This document shows, in pieces, positions 48,951 to 64,000 of a DNA stretch of 64,000 nt (positions within the stretch are counted from its first letter, which is position 1; each line of letters opens with the position of its first letter). A program made the translations under genes and the position numbers. A model generated the notes under the pieces. That model worked only from the letters and a program-made list of their open reading frames with translations, made no database searches and was not told the DNA's origin. The stretch comes from Pelecanus crispus (Eukaryota > Chordata > Aves > Pelecaniformes > Pelecanidae): contig NC_134643.1 of the NCBI RefSeq assembly GCF_030463565.1, positions 7,920,657 through 7,984,656 on the forward strand, given 5' to 3'.

Positions 48951-50300
48951 ATACTTAGAAGCCACCATCTTTGGATACAGTGTTTTCTGCTTATTCCTGG
49001 CATGAGCTTATCTCTTTGGCCATGTATTCAAAAAAATATCCATCAACTCATTCATTGTCTCTTCAAAGTCTCCGGTAGAAAAGTACAGACAGCACTAAAT
49101 GAAATAAAAAGCTACAAATCCCAATGCACAAAAGCACACTTGAAATAAGCCAAAAGGCTCATTGGATCGCTGTGGTATGCAGAGAAGACAGCACAGCTGG
49201 GTCCTGAATCAGCTGCGTCCTCCTATTCTTGCCCATCCAGTGAGGGTCACCTGCACAGCTGCTGGCCCACGTTTGCCCTGGCTGGGCTGGTTTGCACTGA
49301 ACGATACCAAGGTGCGTGGATGAAATCAATTTTGGCAGCTCAGAGGTGGGAATGGCGATGAGCAGAGCTGGAGGAGCAACCTACAGAGCTCCTCCGCTGC
49401 TTTCCAGAGACGTGAAGGGGCTGCCTGGAGAGAAAGGGCGCTTCTCCAGCACAGGCAGCAAGAAGCAGCCTTATCAGCTAAAAGGCCAAAAATTCTTGCT
49501 AGTTACAAGATATAGTCAAGATTTAAGACTACCACAAGGTCCGAGGCCGAAGTCACTTTATATTTTGCATGTCCTGATGTCTCGTTTGCTCCAGAGCTAT
49601 GATGAAGCAGGGGATGGAGGAACACCGTGTCTCCCTTCTCCATGACGACATGGACCCCAGGACTCTTCTCATCGTAATCCAGCGGCCCATGGAAAAAACT
49701 GATTGGCAGACCCTAGAAAACAAGACCGGAAATAGTTCAGTAAAATTAGAACACCACCTGTCTCTCAGTGTAGAAGAAGAGAGGCAAAGGCAGTTATTAC
49801 CTTTCTTGAAGGTAGGACATTCATACACCTGATGAAGAGTCCGCATGTTCGCCTACAAGCCTCTGGCAGAGTACAGTTTCTGAACAACCCTTCATCTTCC
49901 CAGAAATCATGCACTTTATTAACTGTTTCTTCAGACTGAACAACGTTGGGTCTGTGGATCTCGTCTCTCATTATCAGAACTCCCGGTGGATTCATCTCCT
50001 TGTTACAGATCCTCACAAACTTCTTCCTGCACAGCAGAGGGAAGCGGAGAAGCCAGAGCACATTTTAGCCATGTGCAGCCAGATTACTCTCCTCAAAGAC
50101 ACTGTTGCTCCAGAGGAAGGTATCCAGCAACACCACGCACATCCATGTTGGGAGAGTCCAGCTTCATCCAGCTTCCCAGAGCTCCCTCGGGATGCTGCTG
50201 CACACAGGAGCCCCAGCACCTTTGGCAAGTGCCCTGTACCTGAAGCGCTCAATGTCTTCGTCAGAAATGAGCTTCTTAATGAGCAGATACCCGTTGTCTT

Positions 50301-50669
50301 CATAGAATCATAGAATCATAGAATCGTTTAGGTTGGAAAAGACCTTTAAGATCATCCAGTCCAACCATTAACCTACACTACCGAGTCTACTCTAAGCCAG
50401 TCAAGGGTAGACTAGACTAAACCATGTCCCAAAGTGCCACATCTACCCGTTTTTTGAACACTTCCAGGGATGGGGATTCCACCACCTCTCTGGGCAGCCT
50501 GTTCCAATGCTTGACCACCCTTTCCGTAAAGAAATTTTTCCTAATTTCCAACCTAAACCTCCCCTGGCGCAGCTTAAGCCCATTTCCTCTTGTCCTATCG
50601 CTAACTACATGGGAGAAGAGACCAACACCCACCTCACTACACCCTCCTTTCAGGTAGTTGTAGAGAGCG
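50301..50669 (-). mobile_element. CR1 LINE, 5'-truncated, inserted in a PHYH pseudogene exon
   Basis: On the - strand the element starts about CGCTCTCTACAACTACCTG and carries the CR1 C-terminal coding tail ([12 protein letters not shown]...[16 protein letters not shown]). It ends TTTAAGGTCTTTTCCAACC (read + as GGTTGGAAAAGACCTTTAA) followed by three ATTCTATG units. The octamer array runs directly into the exon sequence AAGACAACGGGTATC. The 5' junction also falls at TTCTAT of the exon, so TTCTAT flanks both ends. Sequence is close to the CR1 at 56139-56440, indicating the same subfamily. Confidence 0.95.
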
Positions 50670-50718
50670 ATAGAACTGTCTTTGCTTTGTGGTGAGGACA
50701 TCGTTGTCCAGGGTATAG

Positions 50719-50900
50719 CTGAGACACAGAGGAGGAGCACGTTAGTAGGGCCGGGCAGAGCACCGGGAGCGGCGTCGGCGAGAGCCGGCAGGAGGACGGT
50801 GCCGAGCCGGGGATCGGTGGCTGCCGGGGAGAGGCGGGTGGCTCCAGCCGGCATCCGGGGGAGAATCCGCGAGAAACCCTCCCCACAGCCGACATCAAGG
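50719..50900 (-). other. GC-rich block upstream of PHYH pseudogene exon; possible 5' exon remnant
   Basis: This is a GC-rich island within AT-rich DNA. On - it starts after a good acceptor-like TTATTTTCTTCCAG and is followed by a perfect branch-point-like TACTAAC and CTCCTCTGTGTCTCAG before the YTLDN exon. One - frame has an ATG with [10 protein letters not shown], faintly like the PTS2 peroxisomal signal region of PHYH (RLx5HL), with the histidine position replaced. The match is weak and no donor fits well. It could be a remnant first exon or its CpG promoter. Confidence 0.3.
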
Positions 50901-55330: not shown

Positions 55331-56138
55331 AGCTACACCAATAATGCCAGACAGTGAAGTCTCTCCACGAATCCTGTGTCATGAACCAGATGGGATACTC
55401 TAAGTCCTCACAAAAATCCCAAGGAGAACACCAGCTAGGGTATGAGCCAGAGCTCAGCAAAGTCAACAGAGGAGCCTCCAAGTCACTGGAAATCATTCAC
55501 TTGTGCCCATGCAGCAAGCAAAGACCAGGCTACGAAGGTCCAAGTCTAGAGAGGCGTCATGGCAGGTCTCCCCAAGAGCAGGACCAGTGCCAGGGTTATA
55601 TAGAGGGCATGGGAAGAGAGGCAGGAACCAGGATACTCAAAATCACCCACTGAGCTGGGCTGGAAGTCTGTCCTAAAGTCTCCCCCTTGTCAGTCTTCTT
55701 GGTGTTGTGGTCAAACCAGAGGCTACTGAGAGGATATGTCTGTCTCCAGGTAGGAACCACAGCCCGGACACGTCACCATACCATCAATGTTTAGCACCAA
55801 TGCAATAACTGTGCTCAAACCTTACCTCGTTTATAAAGCATAGAAACAAACGAGAAAACCCATGGATGCTGCAGGAAAAGGAAGAAACACAAACCCCTCC
55901 TCTGCATTTCGTTGTCATGTATGAAACGACTGCATCAGCTTCGACTTGCAGACGCTTGTCTAGGCAGTCCACCGTTGAGCCTTGTGGGCTGAGGACAGGA
56001 CTGCGTCTGATCTCCTGTCTCGCTGAGTGACCTCCCGAGCTGCAGGAAAGCAGAGCAGAAGGAGCCACAAGAGCCCCCCAGTGCAGCCTTTGGTGCTGTT
56101 TTGGCACCTTCTTTGGGAGGAAGGGAGGAGTGGAAAAG

Positions 56139-56440
56139 AATCATAGAATCATAGAATTGTTTAGGTTGGAAAAAGACCTTTAAGATCATCCAGTCCAACC
56201 ATTAACCTACACTACCGAGTCTACTCTAAGCCAATCAAGGGTAGACTAGACTAAACCATGTCCCCAAGTGCCACGTCTACCCGTTTTTTGAACACTTCCA
56301 GGGATGGTGACTCCACCACCTCTCTGGGCAGCCTGGTCCAATTCTTGACCACCCTTTCCGTAAAGAAATTTTTCCTAATTTCCAACCTAAACCTCCCCTG
56401 GCGCAGCTTAAGCCCATTTCCTATCATCCTACGAGAGGAC
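56139..56440 (-). mobile_element. CR1 LINE 3' fragment, 5'-truncated
   Basis: On + it begins AATCATAGAATCATAGAATT and continues GTTTAGGTTGGAAAAAGACC, which is the reverse complement of a CR1 3' end. It carries the same subfamily-specific internal segment (CTACTCTAAGCCAATCAAGG, then GTAGACTAGACTAAACCATG) as the element at 50301-50669. It lies about 60 bp beyond the duplication boundary downstream of PHYH. No target-site duplication is evident. Confidence 0.95.
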
Positions 56441-56496: not shown

Positions 56497-59400
56497 TGCC
56501 AGAATTTCTGAGCGGCAGAAATAATACAACACAGCCTTCAAACACAGTTTTGTTCTAATTTAATCTGTATTCAAAAAAATAAATTCTGAAAGCAAAAGAA
56601 TCTTTCAGAAAGCAAGAAAAAACATTGTGAAAGGCGGGAGGATCATTTCAGTGCACATCGCTCCACCCTGCCACCAGTGCATCCTGAGTAGCACCCAACG
56701 GGGCACCCAGCCGCATCCCTGACCTGGCAGCACCAAAAGGCACCTTTTCCCAGACCCACCAGCCACAAAGGAAGGCTCCCTCATTTCACACAGCCTTGGA
56801 TCAGTTTTGCAAGGCCAACAGGAGGCTGGTTTGCTGGCCCAATAGCTCCCAACCCTGTCAGCCACATATTTCACTTGTGCCAGCACTGCTCAGTAAGCTA
56901 TGATGCCACACCAGGCCATGTTTGAGGAACTCTACTAGCAATTATGTTCCAGCCCACCAGTCCCATTTTTTTATGTGAGTGGTTGCTGCTTCCCCTTTAT
57001 CCAGTTCCTTACGCTGTTGATTCTGCTGGTACCAATAGCCCCATCTTCATCAGCTGTACTAATGACTTCCCATGTGAGCTCATACTGAGGGCTTGTGTGA
57101 AACTGCTTCTTTTTATTTCTTTTGCGTAGAAAAGGAAGTTGGAAACATTAAAAAACATACCCTTGCATAACTTCTTTCATAAAATCTTGTGTTAGTATAG
57201 CATCATTCCAAAGGTATGTCATGTGAGAAACTTTTAAAAAATGAGAATGAAAACATCAAGAAAATCAATGTGTTCTTTCAAGACCTTAATTCTTCAATTG
57301 TCTAAGATAACCACAGCAAATCTCTGGTTTTCTAGGTTAGGTTTTCTTTGGCGTACATCAGCTGTTCAACCTCAGTGCAATTATTTTGTATTAGCATAAA
57401 ATGATTTTGCGATGCAGCATTTGGCTAAGTTACCAATACAGAGGTCAACAAAGCACATATAATTCTGTCTGCCGAGGCAGAGTCTGCGCTCTCTGATCAG
57501 AGAAGCTCATTCTCAGGCATGTGTTTTCCATCCTGCTCTTCAGAGGTTGTTCTACAGGTTAATTCTTTCCCCTTGCACAAGCCGTGCTCGGAAGTTCCAA
57601 ATATCCTTCAAAACAAAAAGGAGACAAAGGAAAATCCTCAAGGGCCAGCAAAAAGAGTGACCAGGATTCCACTTTACAGAGATGGAAATAGATACAGCAT
57701 TCTCAGCTTAGCTACCGACCCATAAAAACATACCAAAACACTTACTGGATATCCTTTCTATATCAAGAACCAAAATGCAGCCCTGACTAAGAAGGAGGTA
57801 CAACCTCCACCCCAGGAGACAGGTTGTTTGCAGGTGTGACACGGACTGCAAGATGCCCATGGTTCAATTCTGGAAGGTGGCAGAAGAGGAAACACGAGCA
57901 GCACAGAGAACATTACCCTTGCAGAAGCCACCCTCGCCTGCTTGTGCACACAGTGCCTGCCTTGTGCACCTTTGGGTGGTCAAAAAAGCTCGGCAACTGA
58001 CCACACCGTGCATACTACTGCTGATGAGCAAGTGATATTCCTTGTGCAGCAGAAAGCAGCAGGAAATAACGGATACGACTGCAAGCCCTTAGCCAGAAAT
58101 TAGGTGCTGGGCAGGCATCGCTGCAGACTGTAAAGCAGAGAAGACCACTGCTGTTTGCTTCACGGAGGTAAGTCTTGGGCAAGCTCCTACCTCTGTTTCC
58201 CTGTGTGAGGATTACTTAGTTCTTATCATTAGTCTTGTGAAGGTCAAATATAAGAGCTGGGCACTCCTCTGGGAAGAAGCTCCAACTCTGGTTAGAAAAA
58301 GCTTAAAGCTACATGAAAACACACAGACTCATCTGAGGCTTGTATGGGCACACACTCATTTCCACTGATGAGAAGGACAGAGCCCCACTAACGCATCGCT
58401 TCAGATTTCAGTGTCCCCCTAAGTAACTCCAGGAATCAAAAGTCCAGCAAGCTGTAACTTTACAGACAGCATGTAAGATCAGGCTTGCAAAACACAGCTG
58501 GACATCCCACCGTACCCAGGCACACTGTGGGAAAAAACCAAACCAAAACAAAAACCTCAAAGGTGAAAAAGAAGGTCCTCTCCTCCAGAATGCCCTAGAT
58601 ATTGTAGTATCTGTAAAATACATAAATGTTAAAAGAAAATCACTCTGCCCATTACATGTAGACTTTACTGCCTTGATACTGGCTGTGTACATGTTTGGGA
58701 ACTGCTGCAGATTAAGAAGTTCAGAACATTTCCAACCCAGTAACAAAGTGTATTTTTCTTTCAGTGGCTAAACCCCTGAAGAATTTAGATTTGCTTTCTG
58801 TCTGACACAATGGTTTCAGTTTTTCAGCAAGAGTCCATTACCCCCATTTTTTATGTTTTTGGAGGAAGATGTGTATCGCTGCTGACATACCTGCTGTAGC
58901 CTCAAGTCTAAACAACTGATGTAGGATTATATTTAACCAAAAAAACTCAGTCTACTATGCAGTCAGATGTGGCTACTTGTTTTAAAAGGCAAATCCATCT
59001 GCCATGATGAGGGGAAACCGTAAGAACTGTGGACATACAAACTGTGGACAGTTTGCACTGAATTTATTGCACCTTCTTATACTTGCAAATTCAGGGCAAG
59101 AGATGATCACATCTATTTACATCATGCAGTCCAAACATAACTGCAAATTGCTCTGGTTTAGACACATTCTGCACAACAAACCGTGCACCAGGAGATGCAG
59201 TGAAGGGCAAAGGTTGCATAGACTTCACCGTATTCCTGCCTTGCCATGCTAGCCCTCCCCAGTGGGGCGAAGTCCAGACCCCCTCAAACAGCGTGAGCAG
59301 CCTCAGAGCTGAGCCATCGCGACAGCAGAGCCTGCGGCTCCCCCTCCCTTAGGCTACAGCATCAGTCGCAGTCGCATAACGAAGTGCTGATCTAATCTCT

Positions 59401-59570
59401 ACCAACTCAGCCGGCACTGGAAGGGATCAAGGCGTGCTCACAAAACCCATTTTGACAAGCAGAGCTGGAGGAGGAACTTCTAAAGCTCAAGGGATGTGAA
59501 GGGGCTGCCCAGAGAGCAAGGCCGCTTCTCCAGCATAGCAAGAAGCAGCCTTATGAGCAAAAAGGCCCCC
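56497..59570 (-). repeat. Segmental duplication, copy B (PHYH 3' region)
   Basis: The partner of 48237-49490, containing the PHYH 3' UTR, last exon and adjoining intron. Copy B carries about 450 bp (roughly 56590-57040) with no counterpart in copy A, where flanking words TCAAAAGTAAAAATC and TCTTCATCAGCTG lie close together. It also has about 1.3 kb more intron between the last exon and 59455. Deletion in copy A is the simpler reading for the intron. The 450-bp block could be an insertion in B or a deletion in A. Confidence 0.8.
56540..57551 (-). other. PHYH: PHYH 3' UTR
   Basis: On the - strand after the PHYH stop there is AATAAA at 57117-57112 and a distal ATTAAA (56564-56559) beside AATACA (56571-56566). 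The distal position corresponds to the canonical AATAAA of the pseudogene copy, so B appears to have lost the canonical distal hexamer and may use the proximal one or ATTAAA. Confidence 0.5.
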
Positions 59571-62500
59571 AAAAAGCCTGCCAGTCAGCCTCTGAACATC
59601 AGGTCTTTCATTCCACTAAGCACCTCTGCTTGGCACAGCTTGATCTGCCAAACTGGGCATAGCAAAAAGCACAAATCTGTCACACAAGAGAGACTTAGGA
59701 AAGGGAGCTGACCTGGATTGTAACAAAGGGCATATAGCCAAGTCTTACCCTGAGTTCCACAGAAGTCATGTTGTATTTCTTGCGAACCATTTCTACCATT
59801 TCTTTCTCCAGGCCCTCCTGGGTCGTGTTCTTGACATCAATGTAGTAGCACTCTGAACTGGCGAAGTGACAGCTTATACTCTGCGTGAGGAAATCGGGCA
59901 TCACTCACTACCACATCAATTACAAATGACTGGTGGAAAAAAAAAAATCTCATGCATCCCAGATTGTGGACACCCCACTCCTTCCTTAGAGATCATGTCA
60001 GCAAAGTCCTTCCTCCTTTCTGAGCACTCCTGCTCTCCTGAGAGTGTCCCCTTGGAGAAATACTCTTGCTTGCTGACACGTTCTCTTCCTTCCCTCCTCT
60101 CCCAAACACTCCCCCAGCATGAACTGTACTACTTGATCTCAGAATATCAGCAACTAGAGTCGGAAGAGAGAAAGTCAGGGTTGGAGCAGACCTGTGTGTT
60201 CAGCAAGGGTTCTTACTTTCTGCACCCAGACAGTCACATCAACGCACTTAGTTTGTAGTCAGTTCTTGCTTAAGCAGAGTCTAGAGGAAATAAATAGATA
60301 TGCCCCAGCAGAAAAACTTGTTCTCTCATTACACAAGCTACGCCAGCTGCAAGCGAGATCATGCCAGACCTCAAAGGGTGCTGGACCATAACCTGACTCA
60401 GAGAGCTCCAGGATACTCACTGATTTACCCCAAAGGCAGACAGATTTGGGGATTTGGCACAGTATGAGGAAGTTCTTGTGTTTCTGTGGGATGCTGAACA
60501 GGACTATTGCTCTACTAGCCAGAAAAGAGCCAGCAAATGAGACTCTCAGTGCCTGATGTCCTCTCTTATTTCAGGATTGCAGGAGGAAGGAATTCCACAC
60601 CAGTAAACTGCTACTGGGGCTGAAAAAACGGGCCATATAGTAGTTGATGCAGGAAAAACAAAATAAAAATAGAGCAGCCTGTGTTGCAGTGCCTGAGAGG
60701 AAACATCTGCATTGCTACTAGTGGCTACACTAGAGGCTACAGTTCCCTTACATGCCTGGATGAATCCACTTCCAAGAAAGGATCAGGCCTCCAAAGGAGG
60801 GCACTTTTGCCTGTTTCAGTTAAATAATCATGATGCAAAACAAATAGATGATGTGTAATCAAATATTTAATAGAAAAATGGGTTGTGTTACAATATAAAT
60901 AAATAAATACTATTTATTGGATGATGGAAGCTCTTGCTATCCAGAGATGAGATACCATGAAGGCACGGGGAAGAAAGTTAGAGAAGCTTCTGATATTTGG
61001 GACAGGTGAAAGGGAACTATTGGAAAAGCAAGTACAGCCAGCCAGGCATCAAACACAGGTTCAACATCTAATTTCTACTCCTGCTCTGTTCTTCTCAAGC
61101 AGCCCCACAGCATGCTCTTCTCCCAAAAGACAGAGATGTTTAAAAATAAAAAAGAGAGTGTAAAAGTATGCTAGAAAGCTAAAAACTCATTAAAAAGTTC
61201 ATCCACGTATTCAGGAGCTTGGAAAGTGGGAGGGGATAGTTTGATCAATTTAAAAAAAAAATCAAAAATATCAAAAGGTGTATCAAGAGATGGTTTCCTA
61301 CCTTTCGGAAACCTGATGTCTTGTTTATCCCGGAGCCATGAATGAGCAGGGGATGGAAGAACACTGTGTCTCCCTTCTCCATGACAATGTGAACCCTGGG
61401 ACTCTTCTCATCCTCATCAAGCAGCCCATGGAAAAGTTTGTTGGCTTTACCCTAGAAAAAAAAATGCTGAGCTGAAATCACTGGGTTAAAATTAGAGCAA
61501 GTGCCGATTCCCAGTGCAAGGGACAGCAGGGATAGTTACTGCTCTGCTTTCCGCTGGGCAGTGTATTTGGTATGCCCAACTAAGAGCCTGCCCACTTGCC
61601 TATAAGTCTCGTACTTCAAGCCTGAGGTACAGCAAAATAATACTTCTTCTGAAGCTGGATTCAGACAATTAAGAACATTTCTTGGCTAGAGAGAACAGAG
61701 AAGAGCACTGGAGAATCCCACAAGTGACGGGGATCAGGGTGGCCTAGTGCCACCACTGGGGTCCAGCCTTCTGCTCCCAGTATAATCATCACCAATGCCA
61801 GGCCAGGCCAGGAAACATCTGTTCTTAAGAACAAGATACCACTTGATATTTAATTGCATCCATTTTCTCCTCTTTGGGACAGTATACACGCTCACCAGGC
61901 AGGAACAAATTCACAGGAGGAGAAAGAGTCCTCAGACTTGGCAAGGGCAGTGCAAAATGGTTGCACGTGTTTATGCCGTTATGCCATGACATGCTGGACA
62001 ATTTCTAGGGGAAGGTGGGAACAGAGGCAAATCTACCCAAGTTACATGGAGTGAGGCCAACCAAGCAACTCTCTCCCGAAGCAACAAGCCAGTGTTTGCT
62101 GTGCTGGTTTTGGCTGGGATAGAGTTAATTTTCTTCACAGTAGCTAGTATGGGGCTATGGTTTGGATTTGTGCTGAAAGCAGCGTTGATAACGCAGGGAT
62201 GTTTCAGTCACTGCTGAGCAGTGCTTGCACAGAGCCGAGGCCTTTTCTGCCTCTCACCCCACCCCAGCAGCGAGCAGGCTGGGGGCACAAGGAGCTGGGA
62301 GGGGACACAGCTGGGACAGCTGACCCCAACTGACCCAAGGGGTATCCCACACCGTATGACGTCATGCTCAGCATATAAAGCTGGGGGAAGAAGAAGGAAG
62401 AGGGGGATGTTCAGAGTGATGGCGTTTGTCTTCCCAAGTCACCGTTACACGTGATGGAGCCCTGCTTTCCTGGAGATGGCTGAACACCTGCCTGCTGCTG

Positions 62501-63000
62501 GGAAGTAGTGAATGAATTCCTTGTTTTGCTTTGCTTGTGTGCACAGCTTTTGCTTTACCTATTAAACTGTCTTTATCTCAGCCCATGAGTTTTCTCACTT
62601 TTACTCTTCTGATTTTCTCCCCAATCCCACCCAGGGGGAGTGAGTGAGCAGATGTGTGGTGCTTAGTTGCCAGCTGGGGTTAAACCATGACAGTTTGCAT
62701 GAACAGAAAAAACATCGCTGAAAACCTCCGCTTTGACCTATGCATCATCCCTCCACAGTGAGCTCTCTCCTGCCAAAGTGTGGTCCCCTCATGCACGCCC
62801 TTCCCAAGCCCCCCATGGTGCTCTACCTCCCACTTCGGATAGCCATGAGGCTTCAGGGTCTCCTTGTGAGTCCCTGGCTGCACAATCAGGCAGCCGTTCT
62901 CCTGGTTGGCCGCCTCCATGGCGGTCCAGGAACACACGATGCGATCCGCAGGCCGGAAGGGGAAATAGTGCAAGTCCTGATGCATGGGGTGGAGAAAAGT
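57552..63000 (-). CDS. PHYH: Phytanoyl-CoA 2-hydroxylase, 3' part (5' exons beyond window)
   Basis: PHYH is the peroxisomal Fe(II)/2-oxoglutarate dioxygenase that hydroxylates phytanoyl-CoA in alpha-oxidation. Exons in transcript order: 63000-62827 ([15 protein letters not shown] to PHGYPKWE), 61451-61302 ([11 protein letters not shown] to GFRK), 59880-59749 ([15 protein letters not shown] to SVELR), 57605-57552 ([20 protein letters not shown]). All junctions are phase 0 with GT/AG sites, giving 169 residues, equal to about the second half of the 338-residue human protein. The HxD pair (HQD, human H175/D177), the distal histidine in LLIHGSG (human H264) and the 2-oxoglutarate arginine in GFRK (human R275) are all present. 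No exon was recognised in 63001-64000, so the gene continues right. It appears functional, in contrast to the neighbouring pseudogene. A solo LTR sits antisense in the intron between the first two of these exons. Confidence 0.97.
62100..62692 (+). mobile_element. Solo LTR of an endogenous retrovirus, 6-bp TSD
   Basis: A 593-bp element starting TGTGCTGGTTTTGG and ending CCATGACA (TG...CA ends), flanked by the direct repeat GTTTGC at 62094-62099 and 62693-62698. It has a CRE palindrome TGACGTCA (62357-62364), a TATA box TATAAA (62374-62379) and a poly(A) signal ATTAAA (62561-62566), the U3-R-U5 order expected on +. A 6-bp duplication fits class II (ERVK-like) avian elements. No internal viral genes are present. 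It lies in a PHYH intron, antisense to the gene. Confidence 0.93.
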
Positions 63001-64000
63001 CTGTATATCTGCAACACAAGTTCAAAACCTTCAACCTCATGAAACGTGACACAGCCTTTTCCTTCCCATTAAACCATGGCACTTGTAACATGTCTTAAGA
63101 AGCTGCTGCTTGCTACTGGAGAGACTTTGCAGACTCAGTGTCCGCTCCAGCCCACCACTGACTTGGAAACCAAATGGGTTAGCTTACACCCCGCCCCAAG
63201 ATGGACCAAGAGCACAGTGGTGGCTCTCGGGTCAGCAATGGCACGAGGATACAGTGAATGCCAGGAGGCTGCCTGGCTGTGCAATCCCTCACAAGACTCC
63301 TTTTGGTGGCCTTCACCAACAACACCCTGCCAAGTTTTCACCATTCACTTTGGCTGCTCTCCAGTTTCCTGAACTTTAACCAGCCCACTGTTGCACAAAC
63401 CTTTCACAATACAAAGACTTTCAAACAGCCACGCTGTCCGTAGTCACTTGATCTACCACTGTGTTGTCAGCAGAATCAACCCTGTCTGTGCTGCACTCAA
63501 CACATGTTTATTTAACCTTCTTTTTAAAAAAAGAGAAAAAGAATTCTCAATTTATGGACTGTGGTCTCCCCAGACAGTCTACCCAGCACTCTATTAGCCT
63601 TCGCCCTAGAGGCTTTTTTCCATGAAGTCTAAACAAAAATAAATACTTCCGAAGTTTTTTTTTTGTTACTTCTTTTCCTACTGTGGAAATGGAAACATAT
63701 CATCCATGCCAAAACAGCCTTTTATATATTATTTATATATTTATTTTGTCATTGAATTTGCTCCTCAGATAGATACAGTTAGGATGTTTCCACTTGTCTC
63801 ATTTGCCATATTACTTAGACTTTGGGCAGCCTCAAAAACTCTCCCGAGACCTGCACCTCTCCTAAAGTACTCCTCAAAGACATTGAATGGAGATCTTGCA
63901 AATATGGAGCAGCTTCCCATTTCTTGTCTGGTATTGTGTTGCTTTTACTTTAAAAATGTATGGTCTCCTGTTGAATTTCCAAACCAAAATGACACAGCTT
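63001..64000 (-). other. PHYH: PHYH intron (continues beyond window)
   Basis: DNA upstream (in gene sense) of the exon at 63000-62827. I looked on - for the next PHYH exon (YVECFTGPNIMAMHTML-like) and did not find it. AT-rich toward the right end, with T-runs near 63652-63664. Confidence 0.7.

Follow-up and report, generated by a model that had tools for sequence, protein, structure and literature searches.

A CR1 element in a tandem PHYH-like copy

We analysed a 64,000-nucleotide stretch of the Pelecanus crispus genome (C1:7920657-7984656, hereafter the window); the genome searched comprised 1.31 Gb in 310 contigs. The window carries a PHYH-like copy, and the parental PHYH gene lies upstream of it on the same strand, with its exons 2-4 past the window end in locus L005. 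Exon 2 of the tandem copy is interrupted by a 5'-truncated CR1 element (50301-50675, minus strand; net insert 368 bp) in the same orientation as the copy. Exon numbers were assigned in this analysis by comparison with the relatives found, and parental coordinates above 64000 extend the window numbering beyond its end. The following features were annotated:

49563..49700, minus strand: later-exon remnant of the PHYH-like copy, 36 residues
49861..50028, minus strand: exon 3 of the PHYH-like copy, then GC where the donor GT is expected (GAG-GCTTGT versus parental GAG-GTAAAA)
50147..50836, minus strand: probable gene-conversion tract with the parental PHYH, split by the CR1 (difference counts versus exon 3; parental side L005:1724-2046)
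50239..50307, minus strand: 3' part of exon 2 of the PHYH-like copy, FYEDNGYLLIKKLISDEDIERFR (translation)
50300..50307, minus strand: 3' junction with the target TTCTATGA, the same as the third octamer unit to the letter (octamer run and empty parental site)
50308..50669, minus strand: CR1-only bases, the 3' part of the 5'-truncated element (at least 39 relatives at other genome positions, 96-98% identical along almost the full query)
50309..50324, minus strand: two CR1 octamers ATTCTATG preceding the ambiguous unit (sequence reading)
50670..50675, minus strand: 5' copy of the target duplication TTCTAT (flank alignments share 6 bp on the parental PHYH)
50670..50720, minus strand: 5' part of exon 2 of the PHYH-like copy, 17 residues (translation)
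57555..63003, minus strand: later exons of the parental PHYH (comparison with relatives); exons 2-4 in L005

Read on the minus strand, the site runs CAG-TTCTAT-CGCTCTC...(CR1)...AACG-ATTCTATG-ATTCTATG-ATTCTATG-AAGACAACGG, and the exon is translated as ...TTKQRQFY upstream of the element and FYEDNGYLLIKK... downstream. A preliminary description of the locus had proposed that a 5'-truncated CR1 splits a PHYH-like exon, that TTCTAT is present at both junctions and that a stop follows about 11 codons into the element. These proposals were borne out, with the uninterrupted parental exon 2 as a control at the DNA level. TTCTAT occurs at 50670-50675 and, at the 3' junction, at 50302-50307, and readthrough after KQRQFY into the CR1 gives ten residues before a stop at the 11th codon.

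The insert has the hallmarks of an avian CR1, for which ATTCTRTG octamer repeats at the 3' terminus are described in the relevant passages of PMC8665684. Its 3' end consists of such a run of 3.12 units, the unit shared with the target included. Moreover, at least 40 matches at 96-100% identity (self included) are dispersed with varied 5' break points, and a short target duplication is present. The reading frame for reverse transcriptase and endonuclease is missing owing to the 5' truncation. At the 5' junction the last three bases of TTCTAT (TAT, 50670-50672) double as the first bases of the element, which gives a 3-nt overlap between target and element. GACCT precedes TAT in six other CR1 copies (L005, L012, L013, L015, L018 and L030), and the target at this position is CAGTTC-TATGAA; therefore, CAGTTC belongs to the target and TAT is common to target and element. 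The target duplication is 6 bp at most, or 3 bp if TAT is assigned to the element. At the 3' junction the eight bases TTCTATGA are common to target and octamer.

The interrupted exon had been described as a coding exon, which has to be corrected to a pseudogene exon. The exons between exon 3 and the remnant, including the HPMHQD exon, had no match in the copy, and in the window the HPMHQD exon was found only in the parental gene. The HxD motif in this exon is presumably the iron-binding site of the dioxygenase family. Exons 2, 3 and a later exon of the copy stand apart with their introns kept and essential exons are lost, as in an unprocessed duplicated PHYH pseudogene. The loss of the catalytic exon and the mutated exon 3 donor led us to judge the exon of the copy non-functional; on the same grounds insertion into a working gene was ruled out. 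Very probably the exon was non-functional when the CR1 inserted, so the event is not a tolerated hit in a working coding exon.

The copy was probably already broken before the CR1 arrived. Hamerkop protein P0015 has an exon 3 of the copy type; its exon 2 site is uninterrupted at the protein level and the model ends in CTLPEA. Its last residue is A, and V stands at that codon in nine other short models (P0007, P0009, P0011, P0012, P0013, P0019, P0020, P0022 and P0028). The terminal A implies a GC donor as in the pelican copy and, together with the uninterrupted exon 2, suggests that the decay is likely older than the CR1 insertion.

The tandem PHYH-like copy (window 49563-50720; proteins P0002-P0028) occurs in several bird orders with differing decay, and its database entries are for the most part partial models of about 93-106 residues. 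When the genome was searched with PF05721, the highest score fell on another contig (C9:37751210-37751344, L001), perhaps in another PhyH-family gene. Literature on tandem duplication of PHYH in birds and on phytanoyl-CoA yielded, among the matches listed, none that was relevant by title and start of the abstract.

The empty site in the parental PHYH

The product assembled from the parental exons is 91% identical to an Aptenodytes patagonicus protein over the full length, the query being approximate at seven residues. Parental exon 2 (L005:1817-1951, minus strand) is uninterrupted, reads AAAGCAAAGACAGTTCTATGAAGACAACGGG and keeps the intact site CAGTTCTATGAAGAC. The flanks of the insertion in the copy are 98.8% (167 bp) and 96.3% (162 columns) identical to the parental gene. 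With blastn, the copy pieces 50147-50307 and 50670-50836 aligned to parental positions 65724-65885 and 65880-66046, overlapping by exactly 6 bp, TTCTAT; this overlap of both flank alignments reveals a 6-bp target duplication. Furthermore, the empty site in parental DNA means that the pre-insertion sequence TTCTATGA is read from DNA, which supersedes a target inferred from the reading frame alone. Accordingly, the earlier claim that a pre-existing TTCTATG(A) matched the 3' octamer of the CR1 itself held true. This empty site with octamer sequence is that of a paralogue and not of an orthologue, the orthologous one being represented by the hamerkop protein alone.

The close resemblance of the flanks is restricted to a tract around exon 2. 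There, exon and introns are about 97.6% identical between parent and copy (8 differences in 329 columns), whereas exon 3 reaches 82.6% (32 differences in 184 columns; Fisher P = 3.5e-9). Elsewhere the identity is 80.9% in the later exon and 74.8% in two matched non-coding stretches. Such a bounded tract, far closer than its surroundings, is what defines interlocus gene conversion. Since the high-identity tract takes in the introns flanking exon 2, it points to gene conversion and not to protein selection, and on these sequence comparisons the exon 2 region of parent and copy was probably homogenised in this way. In the pelican parent, the pelican copy and the hamerkop copy a K precedes QRQFY; among 29 avian PHYH relatives examined, 23 were readable at this residue, with E in 22 and Q in one. 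The K common to parent and copy fits conversion.

Mode of insertion and targets of other CR1 copies

Taking the evidence together, we consider it highly probable that the CR1 entered the decayed tandem PHYH copy by target-primed insertion at an octamer-matching site. The transcript of a young CR1, with ATTCTATG repeats at its end, would have been copied by reverse transcription into the bottom strand of the interrupted exon, where the CATAGAA 3' end of the target could pair with the UUCUAUG end of the RNA and thereby prime the first strand. Reverse transcription would have stopped early, leaving the 5' truncation that is seen. The cDNA end may then have been joined to the top strand at a cut some 6 bases further downstream, via the 3-base TAT overlap observed at the junction. 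The likely order of events would be tandem duplication, exon loss together with the donor mutation at exon 3, gene conversion involving parent and copy at exon 2 and finally the CR1 insertion. The preliminary description had considered the insertion as guided by 3' microhomology. The junctions are compatible with such guidance; pairing could select the site, or it could do no more than stabilise priming at a nick that arose from another cause.

Alternatively, CR1 nicked the DNA here for other reasons and the target TTCTATGA was present by chance. The genome is so rich in CR1 (1451 first-look candidates for the insert query) that some chance 8-nt matches are bound to arise, and in 21 of 29 surveyed copies the octamer match at the 5' junction is 3 nt or less. 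However, an 8-nt match to any octamer phase occurs at a random junction at about 1.2e-4 per insertion (8/4^8), and this one was noticed in a window with only five CR1 elements by the insert query. Besides, a TTCT preference has been published (PMC2612034). Coincidence is therefore an unlikely explanation.

A survey of the targets of other CR1 copies, as had been suggested earlier, bears on the same question. We entered 33 copies and used 29; the four excluded had 5' ends outside the stretch examined (L042, L043, L046 and L063), and L031 and L034 represent loci already listed as L042 and L049. The 29 copies are a non-random set comprising 24 copies found in searching for the closest 3' relatives, one copy from the insert-relative search, three that lie in or near the window and one taken from stretches at even spacing. 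Seen but left out were L012 and L030 (nested insertions), L013 (the reference), L011, L018, L019, L020, L033 and L035, as well as the three other CR1 pieces of the window (near 1824, 13666 and 18955) and weaker pieces.

The junction matches were analysed at two levels. Matches of at least 6 nt between the 5' and 3' junctions were found in 5 of the 29 copies, the exon insert included, versus 4.3% of 812 mismatched pairs, and the permutation P for the mean junction match was 0.0005. Short duplications are real in this set. The algorithm detected no duplication of at least 3 nt in 10 of the 29 copies; in L049 and L051 it seems to have missed duplications suggested by visual inspection (TGATCT and ATTAC), which were not added to the survey. 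As a test of octamer targets this first algorithm was rejected, in that it also counts matches wholly inside the octamer run and gave L>=5 in 23% of mismatched pairs versus 11 of 29 copies. Therefore, we compared the 5' flank with the octamer separately. At least 5 nt at the flank end matched in six of the 29 copies (the exon insert, L041, L044, B56k, L039 and L056) at a chance level of 2.3%, and the exon insert had the longest match of all. Without the exon insert, five of 28 remained (P = 0.0004), but only two of 25 (P = 0.11) when the three copies whose 5' ends we judged untidy (B56k, L039 and L056) were dropped as well. For matches of at least 4 nt the counts were 8/29 (chance 9.4%), 7/28 (P = 0.013) and 4/25 (P = 0.21), respectively. 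When random 5' flanks were joined to the body of the exon insert, 2.5% gave at least 6 nt, because the body itself begins with TAT. Thus, the survey lends some support to octamer-like targets and does not prove them, and most insertions do without. In L012:4721-5197 and L030:3739-4197, CR1 3' ends are apparently nested in one another; such nests could yield empty sites with which to survey more targets.

A further explanation dispenses with the endonuclease, with CR1 cDNA patching a double-strand break at TTCTATG through microhomology at both ends. The element does overlap the target at both junctions, by 8 nt and 3 nt. Nevertheless, the site carries a 6-bp target duplication instead of a deletion, and its 3' end is complete and bears octamers. 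Both features agree with target-primed insertion of the ordinary kind and render a break repair very improbable.

The Pelecanus crispus protein P0006 (78 aa, 100% identical), from another contig (27,598 bases), starts exactly at FYEDNGY, just past the last in-frame stop of the element, where the frame reopens. P0006, known here as a protein only, suggests that the CR1 is also present in a second P. crispus assembly. The short or partial models of other birds start at YTLDN or earlier in twelve cases (P0003, P0007, P0009, P0011, P0012, P0013, P0015, P0017, P0019, P0020, P0021 and P0022), at LDNDV in P0028 and further downstream in P0010 and P0025. With this start of P0006 and a short duplication of the expected kind at the junction, an assembly error or contamination that placed the CR1 in the exon is hardly credible, and no points in its favour were found.

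Relation to known CR1 insertions and age of the element

Homology of CR1 targets to the octamer is already published and the phenomenon is not new (PMC2612034). For chicken CR1, Silva and Burch (1989), as far as their work is related in PMC2612034, described a pre-integration site in which six bases were identical to the final six of the octamer NATTCTRT; TTCTAT at the pelican site matches this TTCTRT. The pelican site differs in being a pseudogene exon, with the empty site preserved in a converted paralogue of that genome. St John and Quinn (2008) reported a TTCT preference beside young CR1s (PMC2612034). The Coscoroba CR1 subfamily I resembles our case in that its CR1s are young, end in octamers and favour TTCT next to them; however, it has the octamer TTCTGTGA and its bias was determined from 3' flanks, whereas the pelican case offers a 5' junction and an empty site (PMC2612034).

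Similar features were described for related elements. According to Yamaguchi et al. (2014), target duplications of the L2 clade peak at 3-5 bp, with CR1 called 'very similar', and 5'-truncated L1 and ZfL2-1 inserts are often joined by microhomology (PMC4245944). ZfL2-1 in DT40 cells, like the pelican element, shows a short duplication near 5 bp and microhomology at the 5' junction, but these are de novo L2-clade inserts in culture and the pelican insert is a natural avian CR1. The CR1 passages of PMC3747384 contain nothing on target choice, the main text of PMC8665684 has no words beginning with pelican or pelecan, and we found no literature joining Pelecanus, CR1, retroposon and Scopus.

The pelican case fits the published CR1 and LINE descriptions in each respect tested, and the mechanism is the known one; our understanding of CR1 integration is unchanged by it. 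What is new is the gene-conversion tract supplying the empty site. The locus provides a clean natural CR1 junction with both flanks, the sequence of the source element and a DNA-level empty site in one genome. Moreover, a paralogue whose likeness gene conversion has maintained can replace a missing orthologue in target-site reconstruction.

The exon CR1 has one private substitution in 348 bases compared with 35 relatives (13 to 35 deep per column), which were picked by likeness, so that changes can be hidden; its six other departures from the commonest base occur in other copies too. The single private change indicates a young insertion. At an assumed rate of 2e-9 per site per year, it corresponds roughly to 1.4 My, with a Poisson upper bound near 8 My, and the 8 differences in 329 columns of the conversion tract correspond to about 6 My, again a rough value. 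The substitution count suggests that the CR1 inserted within the last few million years, with a wide error, and it hints at recent CR1 activity in the pelican lineage. A more speculative idea, which we put forward tentatively and hold to be rather doubtful, is that a young and possibly active pelican CR1 subfamily picks part of its targets by octamer pairing with the nicked strand, and that the insert disrupted the homology of PHYH and its pseudogene and so put an end to their conversion. If true, the insertion and the last gene conversion could be dated on one locus.

Two further copies lie close by. Another young CR1 of this subfamily (96%) is located at 56137-56431, between the parental gene and the copy, and its 5' junction is unclear. 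At the parental PHYH locus, a CR1 with 97.4% identity to the exon insert occupies L005:4363-4720 in the opposite orientation; a small part of the element sequence is duplicated at the 5' end of this CR1.
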